From an uncultured Fimbriimonadaceae bacterium (GTDB taxonomy: Bacteria; Armatimonadota; Fimbriimonadia; Fimbriimonadales; Fimbriimonadaceae), in the NCBI GenBank assembly GCA_937961665.1, contig CALGMO010000027.1:1-42531 (forward strand): DNA of 42,531 nucleotides, in the 5' to 3' direction. Shown here piece after piece: positions 26,303 through 33,247 of this stretch (positions within the stretch are counted from its first letter, which is position 1; the number at the start of each line of letters is the position of its first letter). Position numbers and translations under genes: made by a program. Under the pieces are notes generated by a model, which was not told the origin of the DNA, ran no database searches, and saw only the letters and a list, made by a program, of their open reading frames with translations.

Positions 26303-27076
26303 ATGAAGAGGATCATCGAGACCCACGACCTGTGCAAGGACTACGTGATGGGCGACGTGGTCGTGCACGCGCTCCGGCACATCAACCTGCAGATCGAGGA
26401 GGGGGAGTTCGTGGCCATCATGGGTCCCTCCGGCTCGGGCAAGTCCACGTTCATGAACCTCATCGGCTGCCTGGACCGGCCGACCCGGGGCGAGTACATC
26501 CTGAGCGGCCAGCGGACCGCGGGCCTCAGCGAGAACGAGCTGGCCGAGATCCGCAACCGGTACATCGGCTTCGTGTTCCAGACGTTCAACCTCCTTCCGC
26601 GGACCTCCGCGCTGAAGAACGTGGAGCTGCCGCTGGTGTACGCCGGAGCGAAGAACCGCCAGCAGCTGGCGGAGCGGGCGCTGGAGCGCGTCGGACTGGC
26701 GCAGCGCATGCACCACAAGCCGAACGAGCTCTCCGGCGGGCAGCAGCAGCGCGTGGCGATCGCGCGCGCCATCGTGAACGACCCGGTGCTGATCCTGGGG
26801 GACGAGCCCACGGGCAACCTGGACTCGCGCACCGCCGAGGAGATCATGGCGCTGTTCCAGGAGCTGAACCGGGAGGGCAAGACGGTGGTGATCGTCACGC
26901 ACGAGCCGGACATCGCCAACCACTGTCGAAGGATCATCCGCTTCAAGGACGGCCGGGTGGTGTTCGACGGTCCGGTGGAGAAGCCGGTGGACGCTCTGGA
27001 GCTGCTCAAGTCGATGCCGTCGATGGACGAGGACGACGAGCAGCCGGCGGCCGCGGCGCCGGGCTTCCAGGTGTAG
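26303..27076 (+). CDS. ABC transporter ATP-binding protein, MacB/LolD type
   Basis: The cytoplasmic ATPase that powers the preceding permease. The 257-aa protein contains Walker [10 protein letters not shown] (41-49), Q-loop [10 protein letters not shown], signature LSGGQQQR (from 143), Walker [13 protein letters not shown] (Asp167, Glu168) and the switch His200 in VTHEPD, all intact. The C-terminal 30 residues are an acidic tail rich in Asp, Glu and Ala not seen in LolD. It is the last gene of the operon; a short hairpin follows its stop. Confidence 0.94.
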
Positions 27077-27078
27077 GC

Positions 27079-27092
27079 GGGCCTTTCGGCCC
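27079..27092 (+). terminator. Short hairpin after the efflux operon
   Basis: GGGCC (27079-27083) pairs with GGCCC (27088-27092) around a TTTC loop, three bases after the ATPase stop. The stem is only 5 bp and lacks a T-run, so termination is uncertain. Confidence 0.3.
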
Positions 27093-27097
27093 AGCTC

Positions 27098-27115
27098 CGA
27101 GGATACGAATTCCCG
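27098..27115. promoter_or_regulatory. Distal LacI-family operator (copy 1)
   Basis: CGAGGATACGAATTCCCG is an 18-bp near-palindrome sharing 16 of 18 bases with the second copy at 27227-27244. The two copies are 129 bp apart, centre to centre, in the gap before the lacI-type gene. Confidence 0.6.
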
Positions 27116-27226
27116 GTCCGGGGCCTTCGGAGGCTCCCCTCCGGCGCCCGGCCGGGCCCGGCCCCCGCGAAAATCCCCTGTTCCGGCGGAATCGGAGGCC
27201 CGATCGGCCGAAAAGTGGTGTAGAAT

Positions 27227-27244
27227 CGAGAATACGAATTCTCG
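27227..27244. promoter_or_regulatory. Proximal LacI-family operator (copy 2)
   Basis: CGAGAATACGAATTCTCG has perfect 7-bp arms (CGAGAAT / ATTCTCG) around ACGA. It lies directly after TAGAAT (27221-27226), a possible -10 box, and 4 bp before the regulator ATG at 27249. Binding there would block transcription start, so negative autoregulation is likely. Confidence 0.68.
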
Positions 27245-27248
27245 GGCC

Positions 27249-28298
27249 ATGGGACACCGCCGTCCGAACAAAGTGACCCAGCTGGACATCGCTCGCCTCG
27301 CGGGCGTGTCGCAGTCCACCGTCTCCCGCGTGATGGCGGGCGACCCCAAGGTGGAGCCCGAGCTCCGCGAGCGGGTCCTCCAGGCGGCTCGCCTGCACTC
27401 CTACCTCCCCGACGCCCGCGCCCAGTCCCTTCGGCGGCGCGAGTCCGGCATGATCGGCCTGGTGATCAAGCGGCCCCGCGGCGGATTGGCCGGCGACGCC
27501 TTCTTCTCGAACCTGATCGGCGAGATCATGGACCGCCTCCACGACGCCGGTAGCCGGCTGTGCCTGGAGCTGGTGCACGGCGACGAGAACGAGGTCAGCG
27601 TCCACGAGGCCCTGCTGCGCAGCAAGCGCGTCGACGGCGTGATCCTGGTCGAGTCGGTGGTGCACGACAGCCGACTGGAGCTGCTGCAGCGCGACCGCTT
27701 CCCGTTCGTGCTCATCGGCAACCCGATGCGCAGCCACGTGTGGTCGGTCGACAACGACAACGTCGCGGCGGGTGCGCTCGCGGCCGAGGAGCTCATCCGC
27801 TCCGGGTACCGCCGCATCGCCATGCTGGCCGGCCCTCCCGGCATCACCGTCAGCGAGGACCGCATTCTGGGCTATTCCAGGGCGCTGGACGCCGCGGGAA
27901 TGCCCTGCCGCATCTGGCACTCCGACTTCGGCATCGAGGCCGCGCGCCTGGTCGCCGAGGAGGCCCTGGCCGGCCCCATGGCGCCGGACGCGCTGGTGGT
28001 CCTGGACGACCTGATGGCCATGGGCGTCGTGCTGACGGCTCGCGAGCAGGGCCTGCGCATTCCCGACGACCTGGGGCTGGTCAGCTTCAACGACACGCAC
28101 CTGTGCCACGTGCTCGAACGCGGCCTCACCTCGGTCAGCCTGAACATCGAGGCGCTGGTTCGCGAGGCCGTCGACTGCCTGATGGCGCAGATCCGGGGCG
28201 AGGGCCCGAGCGAGCCCCGACGCATCCTGGTCCCCTGCCAGCTCAAGCGCCGCGGGTCGTCGGCGCCCCTGCCCCGCGGCGAGGAGGCCCTGCGGTGA
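27249..28298 (+). CDS. LacI-family transcriptional regulator
   Basis: A 349-aa repressor. The N-terminal helix-turn-helix and hinge helix read [21 protein letters not shown] (residues 9-29, slightly longer than quoted motif usage) and [21 protein letters not shown]. The rest is a periplasmic-binding-protein-like sensor domain with [27 protein letters not shown] and [13 protein letters not shown]. Its stop overlaps the GTG of a GH13 enzyme, so it very probably controls alpha-glucan use in response to a sugar. Two matching palindromes flank its promoter region. No Shine-Dalgarno is evident. Confidence 0.93.
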
Positions 28299-30397
28299 CC
28301 GCTCTGCTGCTCGCCCTGGCGCTCGCCGGCTCGGTGCAAGGGGTCCGCTGGCGATTCCTCTACGAGTCGCCCGAACCCGTCGCCAGCGTGAGCGTGGCCG
28401 GAACGTTCAACGGCTGGTCGACGACGGCGAACCCGATGCGGCCGGACGCCGACCGGCGGCGCTGGACGCTCTCGCTGGAGCTTCCCGTCGGCCGGCACGC
28501 CTACAAGTTCGTCGTGGACGGGTCCCGCTGGGTCCTCGACCCGAAGAACCCGCGGTCCGAGGACGACGGAGCGGGCAACGTGAATTCGATTCTCACTGCG
28601 CTGCCTCCCGACTACTCCAGGCCGGCCAGGGCCGGCGACGGGAGGATCGCCGCGTCCGGCGTGTCGCACCACCCCGAGCGGGGCGACGCGGTCTGGGACC
28701 GGGGCCGGCTGTTCCTGACCGTGCGCACGCGGCCGGGCGACGTTCGGTCGGTGCGCTTCGTCCCGGAGTCCGGCCCTTCGGTGGCGCTGAGCCCCGGCGA
28801 CGCCGACGAGTTCCAGGCGGTCTGGAAGGGCCTCGTGCGGTGGGATGCCCGGCAGACCCTGCGCTACCGCATCCGGCTGGAGGACGGAGCGAGCTGGTGG
28901 CTCGGCCCCCGCGGACTCTCGGCCGAGGAGCCGGGCGAGCGGTTCGCGATCCGCCCCGAGCAGGCCGCGCCGCTGGTTCCGCCGGCTTGGGTCGAGAGGA
29001 CCGTCTTCTACCAGATCTTCCCCGACCGCTTCGCCAACGGCGACCCGGGCAACGACCCGGCGACGGTCGAGCCTTGGGACGCCCAGCCGAAGTGGTTCAC
29101 GTTCCTGGGCGGGGACCTGGCCGGGGTGCTCCAGAAGACCGGGTACCTGGAGCGGCTGGGGATCCGCGCCGTGTACCTGAACCCGATCTTCGTGTCGCCC
29201 TCGGCGCACGGGTACGAGACGACGGACTACCTGCGCATCGAGCCCCGGTTCGGAACGAACGAGCTGTTCGTCCGGCTCACCCGGGATCTGCGGGCCAAGG
29301 GAGTCCGAACGGTGCTCGACGGCGTGTTCAACCACACGTCGGTGGACTTCTTCGCCTTCCGGGACCTGAGGGAGAACGGCGAGCGCTCGCGCTACCGCTC
29401 GTGGTACACGCCGCACTCCTTCCCGATCCGAGTCCAGGATCCGCCGAACTACCACGCCTGGTTCAACTTCCCGTCGATGCCGAAGCTGAACCACGCCGAT
29501 CCGGAAGTGCGGGCCTACCTCTTGGGCGTGCCCAGCTTCTGGATGTCCCGGGCCGACGTGGCGGGCTGGCGCCTGGACGTCGCCGACGAGGTGCCCGACG
29601 ACTTCTGGCGGGACTTCCGAAGGACCGTCAAGTCGATCGACCCCGAGGCGTGGATCGTGGGCGAGGTCTGGGGCGACGGCAAGCGCTGGCTGGGGGGCGA
29701 CCAGTGGGATTCGGTGATGAACTACCGCTTCCGCGACGTCGCCGTGCGCTTCTTGGCGCAGCGCTCGGAGCCCGCCGAGCGGGCCTGGTCCAGGCTCGAG
29801 GCGCTGTACTGGCGCTATGGGCCGACCGTCTCGCGCAACCTGCTGAACCTTCTGTCGAGCCACGACACGCCTCGGTTCCTGACCCTCTGCCGAGGGGACC
29901 GGTCGCTGGCCAAGCTCGGAGCGACCCTTCTGCTCACCTGGGTCGGCGCCCCGTGCGTTTACTACGGCGACGAGCTTGGCATGGAGGGCGGGCCGGACCC
30001 CGACAACCGGCGGGGCATGCGCTGGGACCTCGCGCGCGACGACAACGACCTGCTCGCCTGCCACCGCTCGCTGATCGCGGCGAGGAACGCCAGCCCGGCG
30101 CTGCAGAGCGGCGACCCCGTTCTGCTGCTGGCGCGGGGCGACCTGCTGGCCTTCGCCCGCGTTCTCGACGACGATTTGGCCGTAGTCGCCCTGAATCGGG
30201 GCGACCGGCCGGCCGATCTGCGGCTGAGGATCCCTCGGCCCGGAGTTTCGTCCACCCTGACGCTCACGGATGCGATGACCGGCCAGAGCCGGACCGTCCG
30301 TCGCGGCGTCCTCGACCTGACCCTTCCGGCGCGGAGCTCGGCGGTGCTGGTCCCCGCGCGCGGAAACGACCCCGCTCCGGATTCGGAACGACCTTGA
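28295..30397 (+). CDS. GH13 alpha-amylase-family enzyme with starch-binding module, neopullulanase-like
   Basis: Hydrolyses alpha-glucans or their oligosaccharides. The 700-aa protein begins with GTG at 28295, overlapping lacI by 4 bp, with GAGGAGG (28281-28287) 7 nt upstream. A short hydrophobic N-terminus (to about residue 16) may be a signal peptide. Residues about 25-105 are a CBM48-type module (VSVAGTFNGWSTTANPM, GRHAYKFVVDGSRW), followed by a second beta domain to about 230. The GH13 barrel begins at VFYQIFPDRFANGDP; catalytic residues are Asp428 in GWRLDVADE, Glu457 in VGEVWGD and Asp524 in SSHDTPR, all intact. The ending is a standard beta domain. Cyclomaltodextrinase or maltogenic amylase activities are alternatives. 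Confidence 0.92.
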   Translation: MTALLLALALAGSVQGVRWRFLYESPEPVASVSVAGTFNGWSTTANPMRPDADRRRWTLSLELPVGRHAYKFVVDGSRWVLDPKNPRSEDDGAGNVNSILTALPPDYSRPARAGDGRIAASGVSHHPERGDAVWDRGRLFLTVRTRPGDVRSVRFVPESGPSVALSPGDADEFQAVWKGLVRWDARQTLRYRIRLEDGASWWLGPRGLSAEEPGERFAIRPEQAAPLVPPAWVERTVFYQIFPDRFANGDPGNDPATVEPWDAQPKWFTFLGGDLAGVLQKTGYLERLGIRAVYLNPIFVSPSAHGYETTDYLRIEPRFGTNELFVRLTRDLRAKGVRTVLDGVFNHTSVDFFAFRDLRENGERSRYRSWYTPHSFPIRVQDPPNYHAWFNFPSMPKLNHADPEVRAYLLGVPSFWMSRADVAGWRLDVADEVPDDFWRDFRRTVKSIDPEAWIVGEVWGDGKRWLGGDQWDSVMNYRFRDVAVRFLAQRSEPAERAWSRLEALYWRYGPTVSRNLLNLLSSHDTPRFLTLCRGDRSLAKLGATLLLTWVGAPCVYYGDELGMEGGPDPDNRRGMRWDLARDDNDLLACHRSLIAARNASPALQSGDPVLLLARGDLLAFARVLDDDLAVVALNRGDRPADLRLRIPRPGVSSTLTLTDAMTGQSRTVRRGVLDLTLPARSSAVLVPARGNDPAPDSERP

Positions 30398-30423: not shown

Positions 30424-31350
30424 ATGCGCAATCAGCGAAGATTGGGCTTCACGCTCATCGAACTCCTCGTCGTGATCGCGATCATCGCCATCCTGGCGGC
30501 GATCCTCTTCCCGGTGTTCGCCCAGGCGAAGGTTTCGGCCAAGAAGACCGCAGACCTGTCGAACCTGAAGCAGAACATGACGGCGACGCTCATGTACGCC
30601 AGCGACTACGACGACCGCCTGCCGCACACCAACTGGCAGGAGGACTACGTGTTCGCCGCCCGGGTGTTGCCCTACACCAAGAACCGCCAGATCTTCAAGA
30701 ACCCGGCCAGCCCGAACAAGCGCGGCACCGTGCAGCGGCAGAAGGCTGAGAACGGCTTCGGCAACTACATCCTCGACCCGAGCGACGGGTGCGTCGGCTT
30801 GGGCGTCTCGGCGCGCGGCCGCGACAACTACTTCGACGACATCTACCCGCCGATCGACTACCGCCTGAACCCGAACATCTTCGGCTACCAGGGCGGTCAG
30901 TGCACCGGCCTGTACGGCTACTACGCTCCGGCACCGAGCGCCACGTCGGGCGGCCCCGGCGGCGAGGGCGTGGAGGGCGTCGGCCCCGGCTCGCTGGAGT
31001 TCGTGAACCCGGCCCGTGTGGTGGTCTGGCACAACTTCCCGACTTCGGCGATGACCTGGCCCGGCAACCAGAGCGGCCTGCAGGGCTTCTGGGGCATCAA
31101 GACCGGCTACTTCAACGACGGCAGCAACGTCGCGTTCGTCGACGGCCACGCCGCGTTCTTCAAGGGAGTCCAGTTGCTGCCCAACCTGAAGGCGGACGGC
31201 ACCCTGCTGTACACCGACACCTGGTGCGGCGGCGAGGGCGGATCCTGCCCGTACGGCGCCTCCTGGTCCGGCGGCGCTCCGCACGCCGAGCAGAACGGCC
31301 GCGCGTTCAACTGGTGGGGCACCAACTACGCCCACCCGGACTTCCAGTAA
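30424..31350 (+). CDS. Type IV pilin-like protein (prepilin signal, DUF1559-like)
   Basis: A 308-aa protein made as a prepilin. MRNQRRLG is the leader; the peptidase would cut between Gly8 and Phe9 of GFTLIELLVVIAIIAILA, leaving the usual Glu at mature position 5. The helix runs into FPVFAQAK, a pattern frequent in Armatimonadota. The C-terminal part has NVAFVDGHAAFFKG (Asp240-Gly241-His242), the motif of DUF1559-like proteins. It has several aromatic and glycine-rich segments and one cysteine pair late in the sequence. GGAGG (30409-30413) lies 10 nt before the ATG. It sits between two amylase genes, not with pilus assembly genes, so an enzyme-display or sugar-binding role is possible but unproven. 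Confidence 0.9.
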   Translation: MRNQRRLGFTLIELLVVIAIIAILAAILFPVFAQAKVSAKKTADLSNLKQNMTATLMYASDYDDRLPHTNWQEDYVFAARVLPYTKNRQIFKNPASPNKRGTVQRQKAENGFGNYILDPSDGCVGLGVSARGRDNYFDDIYPPIDYRLNPNIFGYQGGQCTGLYGYYAPAPSATSGGPGGEGVEGVGPGSLEFVNPARVVVWHNFPTSAMTWPGNQSGLQGFWGIKTGYFNDGSNVAFVDGHAAFFKGVQLLPNLKADGTLLYTDTWCGGEGGSCPYGASWSGGAPHAEQNGRAFNWWGTNYAHPDFQ

Positions 31351-31418: not shown

Positions 31419-31697
31419 ATGCAGAACAAGCCGAGCATCTGGATGTCGTTGTTGCCGCTCGCCGCGGCGATCGCAGGTTGCTCCAGCCTGGGCAACGCCC
31501 CGGCCGGAATGTCCGAGGAGGACGCCAAGGCCGCCATCGAGCGCATGTCGCCCGAGGACAAGATCCGGGCCATCGCCAGCAGCCCCATGCCTCCTCAGGA
31601 GAAGGAGAAGAAGTTCAAGGAGATCGAGGAGCAGACGGGCGTGAAGGCGTCCGACGTGCTCGCTCCGAAGCCGGCCGGCACCGGCATGGGCAACTAG
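31419..31697 (+). CDS. Small lipoprotein of unknown function
   Basis: A 92-aa protein with a type II signal peptide: MQNKPSIWMSLLPLAAAIAGC, with the lipidated Cys21 in the lipobox AIAGC. The mature part is charged and likely helical (residues 31-75), with MSEEDAKAAIERMSPEDKIR and PPQEKEKKFKEIEEQTG, and ends in a Gly-rich tail. I recognise no domain. It sits 68 bp after the pilin stop and 11 bp before the second amylase, so it is likely translated with the latter and may be a surface or periplasmic accessory of the locus. Confidence 0.72.
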   Translation: MQNKPSIWMSLLPLAAAIAGCSSLGNAPAGMSEEDAKAAIERMSPEDKIRAIASSPMPPQEKEKKFKEIEEQTGVKASDVLAPKPAGTGMGN

Positions 31698-31708
31698 CCC
31701 TCACCCCG

Positions 31709-33247
31709 ATGGTGGCGGCTTGGATCGGACTGGCGGCGTTGGCCGCCGCCTCCCCTCGCGCCGAGGCCATGCGCCGTCGCGAGGCCGATTGGCGCGTGGG
31801 CCCGGTGGTGTACCAGGTCTTCGTCGACCGGTTCGCCCCGTCCCCGCGCCTCGAGGACAAGCGAGGCCTGTACGGCGCGCCGCGCAGGCTCCGCGCATGG
31901 ACCGACCTGCCCGAGCCGGGCTCCCCGGTGCCGGAGCTCGGCGTTTGGAGCCACGAGCTCGACTTCTGGGGAGGGGATCTGCAGAGCCTGATCGGACGGC
32001 TGGACCACGTGCGCTCGCTCGCGGAGGTCCTCTACCTCAACCCGATCCACGACGCGCTCACCAACCACAAGTACGACGCCACGGACTGGTTGCGCGTCGC
32101 CCCGGAGTACGGCGATTGGGCCGACTTTCGGAGCTTGGCGCGGGCCTTGCACGCCTCCGGCGGAAGGCTGGTGCTGGACGGGGTCTTCAACCACTGCGGG
32201 CGCTCCAACCCGATCTTCCAGGAGGCTCTGAGGAATCCCGGCTCCCAGCGTCGGAACTGGTTCTTCTTCGACGGCGCCTACCCGGCCGGCTACCGCGCGT
32301 GGGCCGGCGTGGCCAACCTTCCCGAAGTGCGTCTGGAGAACCCCGAGGTCCGGCGCTATCTGTGGAACGGCCCGGACTCCGTGGTGGCCCGGTACCTGAA
32401 GGAGGGCGCGGACGGGTGGCGGCTCGACGTGGCCCACGAGGTGGGTCCGGCCTTCCTCGCGGAACTCGCCCGGGCCGCGCACCGGCACAAGCGGGGCAGT
32501 CTGGTCCTCGGCGAGGTATGGAACTACCCCGAGGGATGGACCTCGGTTCTGGACGGGGTCCTGAACATGTTCCTCGGGCGCGCGATCCTCGAGCTCACGG
32601 AGGGCCGCCTGTCGCCGCGGCAGTTCGGTGCGGCCCTGAACGAACTGCTTCGGGACTGCGGCGCAGAGCCTCTCCTGCGGTCTTGGATCGTGCTCGGCAA
32701 CCACGACACTCCCCGTCTGGCGACGGTGCTGCCGGATCGGGCGCAGAGGCGCTTCGCCCAGGCCCTGCAGTTCTCGCTGCCCGGCTCGCCGCTGATCTAC
32801 TACGGCGACGAGCTGGGAATGACGGGAGGGGACGACCCCCGCCAGCGAGCGCCGATGCGGTGGGATCTGGCCACGGCGGACAACCCGGACCTGCGATGGG
32901 TGACGAAGCTGGTCGGGATGCGCCGAGACCTGCGGGCCCTGCGCATCGGCGACTGTCGGGCGCTGCACGGCGAGCGCGCGCTGGCCTTTCTGCGCACCAC
33001 GGAGCGGCCGCTGGAGGCCGTGGTCGTCGTCGCGAACCCGTCCGAAGTCAGCGTCGAAGAGACGTGGATCGTGCCGGACGGAACGCTGATGGGCTACACG
33101 CTGCTCCGGGACGCGCTGTCCGGCGCGACGGCGCGCGTCCTCGCGGGAACCCTGCGGGCGACGATCCCTCCCCGAACGGTGAGGGTGTTCGCCATCGACC
33201 CCGAGGCGAGGGGCCGGGGGCAGTACAAGCGCATGCCGGAAGGCTGA
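31709..33247 (+). CDS. GH13 alpha-amylase-family enzyme (no binding module)
   Basis: A second alpha-glucan hydrolase, 512 aa, shorter than its neighbour because it lacks the N-terminal modules. The catalytic set is complete: Asp240 in GWRLDVAHE, Glu269 in LGEVWNYPEG and Asp333 in GNHDTPRL. VVYQVFVDRFAPSP opens the barrel and YYGDELGMTGGDDP follows. The N-terminus MVAAWIGLAALAAASPRAEA is hydrophobic and ends in an AEA-like cleavage site, so export is possible though it has no basic residues. It starts 11 bp after the lipoprotein stop and has no clear Shine-Dalgarno. Confidence 0.9.
   Translation: MVAAWIGLAALAAASPRAEAMRRREADWRVGPVVYQVFVDRFAPSPRLEDKRGLYGAPRRLRAWTDLPEPGSPVPELGVWSHELDFWGGDLQSLIGRLDHVRSLAEVLYLNPIHDALTNHKYDATDWLRVAPEYGDWADFRSLARALHASGGRLVLDGVFNHCGRSNPIFQEALRNPGSQRRNWFFFDGAYPAGYRAWAGVANLPEVRLENPEVRRYLWNGPDSVVARYLKEGADGWRLDVAHEVGPAFLAELARAAHRHKRGSLVLGEVWNYPEGWTSVLDGVLNMFLGRAILELTEGRLSPRQFGAALNELLRDCGAEPLLRSWIVLGNHDTPRLATVLPDRAQRRFAQALQFSLPGSPLIYYGDELGMTGGDDPRQRAPMRWDLATADNPDLRWVTKLVGMRRDLRALRIGDCRALHGERALAFLRTTERPLEAVVVVANPSEVSVEETWIVPDGTLMGYTLLRDALSGATARVLAGTLRATIPPRTVRVFAIDPEARGRGQYKRMPEG

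Follow-up and report, generated by a model that had tools for sequence, protein, structure and literature searches.

The window analyzed here, a 42,531-nt stretch from the 2.88-Mb, 142-contig genome of an uncultured Fimbriimonadales bacterium, carries two candidate operators for a LacI-family repressor encoded just downstream. We propose that the operator next to the gene mediates autorepression of a regulator–amylase operon and that the second, farther upstream, serves as a lineage-specific auxiliary site, and we give this explanation as a whole a probability of about 0.8. It is most likely a common type of switch that has now been mapped in this bacterial group; a text search returned no LacI-family literature on the group, and the motif string GAATACGTATTC was absent from the searched papers. 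For such a group, the analysis supplies a testable operator code together with a first outline of a starch/maltodextrin regulon.

Both candidate operators are 18-mers read on the forward strand. The proximal (main) candidate, CGAGAATACGAATTCTCG, occupies positions 27227–27244, with a core, GAATACGAATTC, at 27230–27241 and a central CG at 27235–27236. The distal (auxiliary) candidate, CGAGGATACGAATTCCCG, lies at 27098–27115, with its core, GGATACGAATTC, at 27101–27112. The preliminary description of this DNA had presented them as twin sites, and its particulars held on re-examination: the two are 129 bp apart (start to start) and identical at 16 of 18 bases, the 7-bp arms of the proximal copy, CGAGAAT and ATTCTCG, match perfectly, and this copy is placed between a TAGAAT hexamer and the regulator ATG at 27249. 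The same description saw no other copy of the motif in the window, and this extends to the whole genome, where no further match was found at ≤3 mismatches; shuffling gives an expectation of 0.03 such matches in the window, as compared to those found. By mononucleotide shuffling, a second core with ≤1 mismatch would occur 30–500 bp upstream of the gene with a chance of ~0.0005. Matches to the core with one mismatch do exist elsewhere in the genome; the four of these contexts that we examined (C138, C41, C125, and C98) all fall within long open frames, and we rejected them as operators. The distal copy is the less symmetric of the two, its left half reading GGATAC vs GAATAC in the proximal copy, and since NT-5 of this left half is G where the proximal copy has A, in the window and in the sister species alike, the distal operator is probably the weaker one.

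The gene behind these sites (27249–28298, forward strand) encodes a 349-aa LacI-family repressor with helix-turn-helix, hinge, and sugar-binding domains (PF00356, PF00532, and PF13377, all above cut-off), and is likely autoregulated. Even palindromes with a central CG are the dominant operator form in this family, 72% of whose studied members autoregulate (PMC4052901). Across 93 operator sites gathered from the window and its relatives, C and G occupied the center in 93 of 93, although the collecting core already included this CG, with one mismatch allowed. The recognition helix reads Q-[S/A]-TVSR; the TVSR arginine has been tied to an operator G at NT-6 (PMC2978694), and here R27 is invariant in 10 orthologs and G is found at this position in 89 of the 93 left halves. 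The hinge residue L61 is likewise invariant in the 10-ortholog alignment. All NCBIfam equivalog models for known LacI-family regulators (RbsR, CcpA, CytR, PurR, GalR, MalI, and others) were missed by a wide margin, the best being RbsR with 146.8 bits vs a cut-off of 531, so that none of the established names, RbsR and CcpA included, can be applied to it. This also sets the protein apart from the CcpA/MalR-type starch and maltose repressors, with which it shares the LacI fold and, most likely, the control of amylase genes.

Next, we evaluated how far the proximal operator has been kept along with the protein. Regulator orthologs occur at 45–58% protein identity in most genomes of the family, with the next paralogs falling to ~34%, and the set used here comprises 62 copies: 60 fetched loci, the sister species (G002/L033, a Fimbriimonadales metagenome-assembled genome whose regulator is 93% identical), and the window itself. 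A separate scan of genome contigs for relatives returned this sister genome and two unrelated regulators only. Requiring ≤1 mismatch to GAATWCGWATTC within 500 bp upstream, we found a core 11–88 bp before the regulator match in 61 of the 62 copies, these operator-bearing orthologs spanning the same 45–58% identity range aside from the sister; the single exception is G107, and the distal sites of the window's genus lie further out. In the order-level orthologs L028–L032, whose upstream DNA we inspected, GAAATCGTATTC or a near copy stands directly behind a TATAAT-like box. With conservation in relatives having been the check proposed beforehand, this comparison provides strong support for the putative operators and for autoregulation.

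The position of the proximal operator is consistent with a role at the promoter. In the window, the candidate −10 box TAGAAT (27221–27226, forward strand) is followed directly by the 18-mer and ends 3 bp before its core; the operator therefore overlaps the expected transcription start. No clear −35 accompanies this box, and a consensus scanner found no sigma-70 promoter pair in the region, chiefly for lack of a −35. In most orthologs the operator likewise follows a −10-like box: a good hexamer lies ≤20 bp before an operator in 41 of 61 cases, whereas shuffled sequences gave 14.4 on average and 24 at most. More than one upstream site was detected in 25 of the 62 copies, at spacings of 12–16 bp, 30–33 bp, as triples (32 + 15), in overlapping 6-bp steps and, in two cases, at 128–129 bp. 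One genome holds two regulator copies ~6 kb apart (L096 and L097; G063:C1:2413451 and 2419810), each with operator registers overlapping in 6-bp steps.

Downstream, a GH13 alpha-amylase/maltodextrinase-like gene with an N-terminal CBM48 (28295–30397, forward strand) begins with a GTG that overlaps the TGA stop of the repressor, and the two genes are thus probably co-transcribed; their order is kept in most orthologs. A prepilin-like gene with an N-terminal methylation motif follows (30424–31350, forward strand), probably on the same transcript, as judged from its orientation and tight spacing, and then a second GH13 gene, cyclomaltodextrinase-like, on the same strand as the repressor (31553–33247). 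The two GH13 genes are thereby separated by the prepilin-like gene, and similar prepilin genes adjoin the regulator in several relatives (L098, L101, L097, and L124). The upstream neighbor, an ABC transporter ATPase gene (26303–27076, forward strand), probably does not belong to the regulon.

From operator sequence, uniqueness, conservation, and gene order, we infer that both 18-mers would be bound by the adjacent regulator. A repressor dimer at the proximal operator would cover the transcription start and block initiation of the regulator–amylase (–prepilin–GH13) operon, so that the regulator would repress itself and control starch/maltodextrin breakdown along with it, and a sugar ligand would presumably act as inducer and relieve repression. 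The distal operator, a weaker and one-sided copy, may strengthen repression through cooperativity, through a loop, or by stopping read-through from the upstream ABC operon. This general arrangement resembles the local carbohydrate regulons of the LacI family (Ravcheev et al. 2014, PMC4052901), in which an even palindrome with central CG lies close to the start of a regulator that adjoins carbohydrate genes, and multiple sites precede ~20% of operons. The spacings differ, however: the published peaks are at 13, 22, and 32 bp, compared to 12–16, 30–33, and 128–129 bp plus overlapping 6-bp steps here.

In the sister species the distal core is kept at 12 of 12 positions, and the spacing is 128 bp, as compared to 129 bp in the window. 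When three conserved blocks are set aside, namely the distal core, a proximal 16-mer, and a small hairpin, the intergenic DNA of the two species agrees at 52% of 130 aligned positions, and its longest identical run is 7. The hairpin (GGGCC-TTTC-GGCCC, GGGCCTTTCGGCCC; 27079–27092, forward strand) lies between the ABC gene and the distal operator, lacks a T-run, and is conserved at 14 of 14 positions in the sister. On conservation alone, and given 52% identity, chance would leave all 12 positions of such a core unchanged somewhere along ~150 positions in ~6% of cases; the conservation of the distal core appears convincing through its combination with the motif match, and less so by itself. A site at 128–129 bp was found in none of the other relatives in the 62-copy set. 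Within the genus, the pair occurs in both of the two genomes that have the gene, and a third member (G001, 73% complete) yielded neither regulator nor motif. As far as these genomes indicate, the distal operator is a genuine feature, though one restricted to this genus.

The preliminary description had proposed autoregulation by looping. The autoregulatory part is well supported by the comparisons above, whereas looping is a possibility. Two repressor dimers, one bound at each operator, would interact and draw the intervening 129 bp, promoter included, into a loop like the one that LacI forms between O1 and O3; this amounts to a stronger version of the role that our preferred explanation leaves to the distal site. 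Two conserved operators do lie around the promoter, and their spacing has been kept within 1 bp even though the intergenic DNA is ~52% identical; LacI itself forms ~150-bp loops even with out-of-phase operators (PMC2553838). However, E. coli LacI loops as a tetramer, and the alignment of the window's regulator to LacI ends at residue 332–333 of 358–360, short of the C-terminal tetramerization helix; orthologs end likewise, in RGSS and a few residues. The spacing of 128–129 bp corresponds to ~12.2–12.3 helical turns, and the layout is absent from all other genera. On balance, we hold looping autorepression as a tentative possibility, and one that we would not expect to be the case. In the E. 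coli gal system, the promoter lies amid two operators separated by slightly more than 100 bp, and GalR, a dimeric repressor lacking a tetramerization tail, forms a loop with HU. The window shares with gal a tail-less LacI-family repressor and two operators around the promoter at a distance of this order, but the operator sequence is different, and nothing here points to an HU-type site or to GalR–GalR contact.

The distal site could instead act as a road-block or insulator against presumed read-through from the ABC operon into the regulator–amylase operon, making no contact with the proximal site, and we regard this as somewhat unlikely. The distal operator follows the ABC stop by a few bases, on the same strand and behind a conserved hairpin devoid of a T-run, and LacI is known to autoregulate by road-block at O3 (PMC3711431); yet no such site occurs in other genera. 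A GalR-like dimer–dimer loop and an ABC read-through road-block appear, in our analysis, equally compatible with the evidence. It seems improbable that the proximal operator works alone and that the distal copy arose by chance or survives from an operator duplication without a function: this copy is less symmetric and missing outside the genus, but its core is unchanged in the sister while its surroundings turned over, and a second such core has a chance of only ~0.0005.

In other genera, further copies of the core lie near the start of the co-transcribed amylase gene. Exact cores were observed ~57–78 bp after the regulator end in L114, L120, L019, L129, L131, L132, L134, L135, and L140 (and in L101, where the site, at 59 bp, is intergenic), and ~293–308 bp after it in L089, L094, L103, L107, L133, and L136. 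The cores at the first position are read as E-F-V-F, and those at the second as N-T-N-S. Among EFVF-reading genes, 8 of 9 use exactly GAATTCGTATTC compared to 0.25 predicted when the codon usage of each gene is taken into account, and the exact operator occurs in 6 of 25 G[N/H]TNS-reading genes compared to ~0.06 expected (summed over GNTNS genes only), contrasts that involve several genera but do not translate into probabilities, since related genomes are not independent. These intragenic cores are candidate auxiliary operators like lacZ O2. In the window and the sister species, neither position carries one.

Considered together, these arrangements recall the E. coli lac operon (O1, upstream O3, and intragenic O2), with the main operator placed where transcription is expected to start, an auxiliary one upstream of it here and putative intragenic ones in relatives, although here the repressor gene heads the operon and its product lacks the LacI tetramerization tail. 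Operators >1 kb away within the amylase gene would act most easily by looping or road-blocking, which lends some weight to a loop in the window as well. A broader version, in which a tail-less LacI-family repressor relies on distant auxiliary operators moved by lineage (tandem at 13–33 bp, 129 bp upstream, or in amylase coding sequence >1 kb downstream), strikes us as unlikely; if true, it would imply that the whole group relies on looping, through dimer–dimer contact or a helper, or on a regulated road-block. In any case, an auxiliary operator that changes place repeatedly, even entering coding sequence, may offer a natural series on the gain and loss of remote LacI-family operators.

Finally, we examined where else the core occurs. 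Relatives that have it carry 1–9 copies per genome vs 0–2 for a reversed control, often upstream of solute-binding/permease fusions, GH13 amylases, GH15 enzymes, and secreted PEP-CTERM-type proteins, and in one genome upstream of a dehydrogenase E1 gene; the core-bearing genes thus point to starch/maltodextrin use. The loci of other genera in which a core stands upstream of a gene for a transporter (solute-binding/permease fusion), a GH13 or GH15 enzyme, or a secreted protein are L143, L149, L151, L162, L144, L157, L158, L172, L147, L159, L173, and L174. Not every match qualifies as an operator, as some fall within coding sequence repeated between genomes (e.g., L154, L160, and L169). In the window's genus, no operator was found at the ortholog of the sugar transporter (62% identity), unlike at the operator-controlled gene of the relatives, and no further convincing site was found in the genomes of the genus; the regulon there thus seems reduced to the regulator's own operon. 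A search for GH15 homologs came back empty, which by itself shows nothing. Solute-binding and transporter permease domains are fused in one ~815-aa open frame (L143:6–2450, reverse strand, and L180) that is present in this group, including the window's genome.
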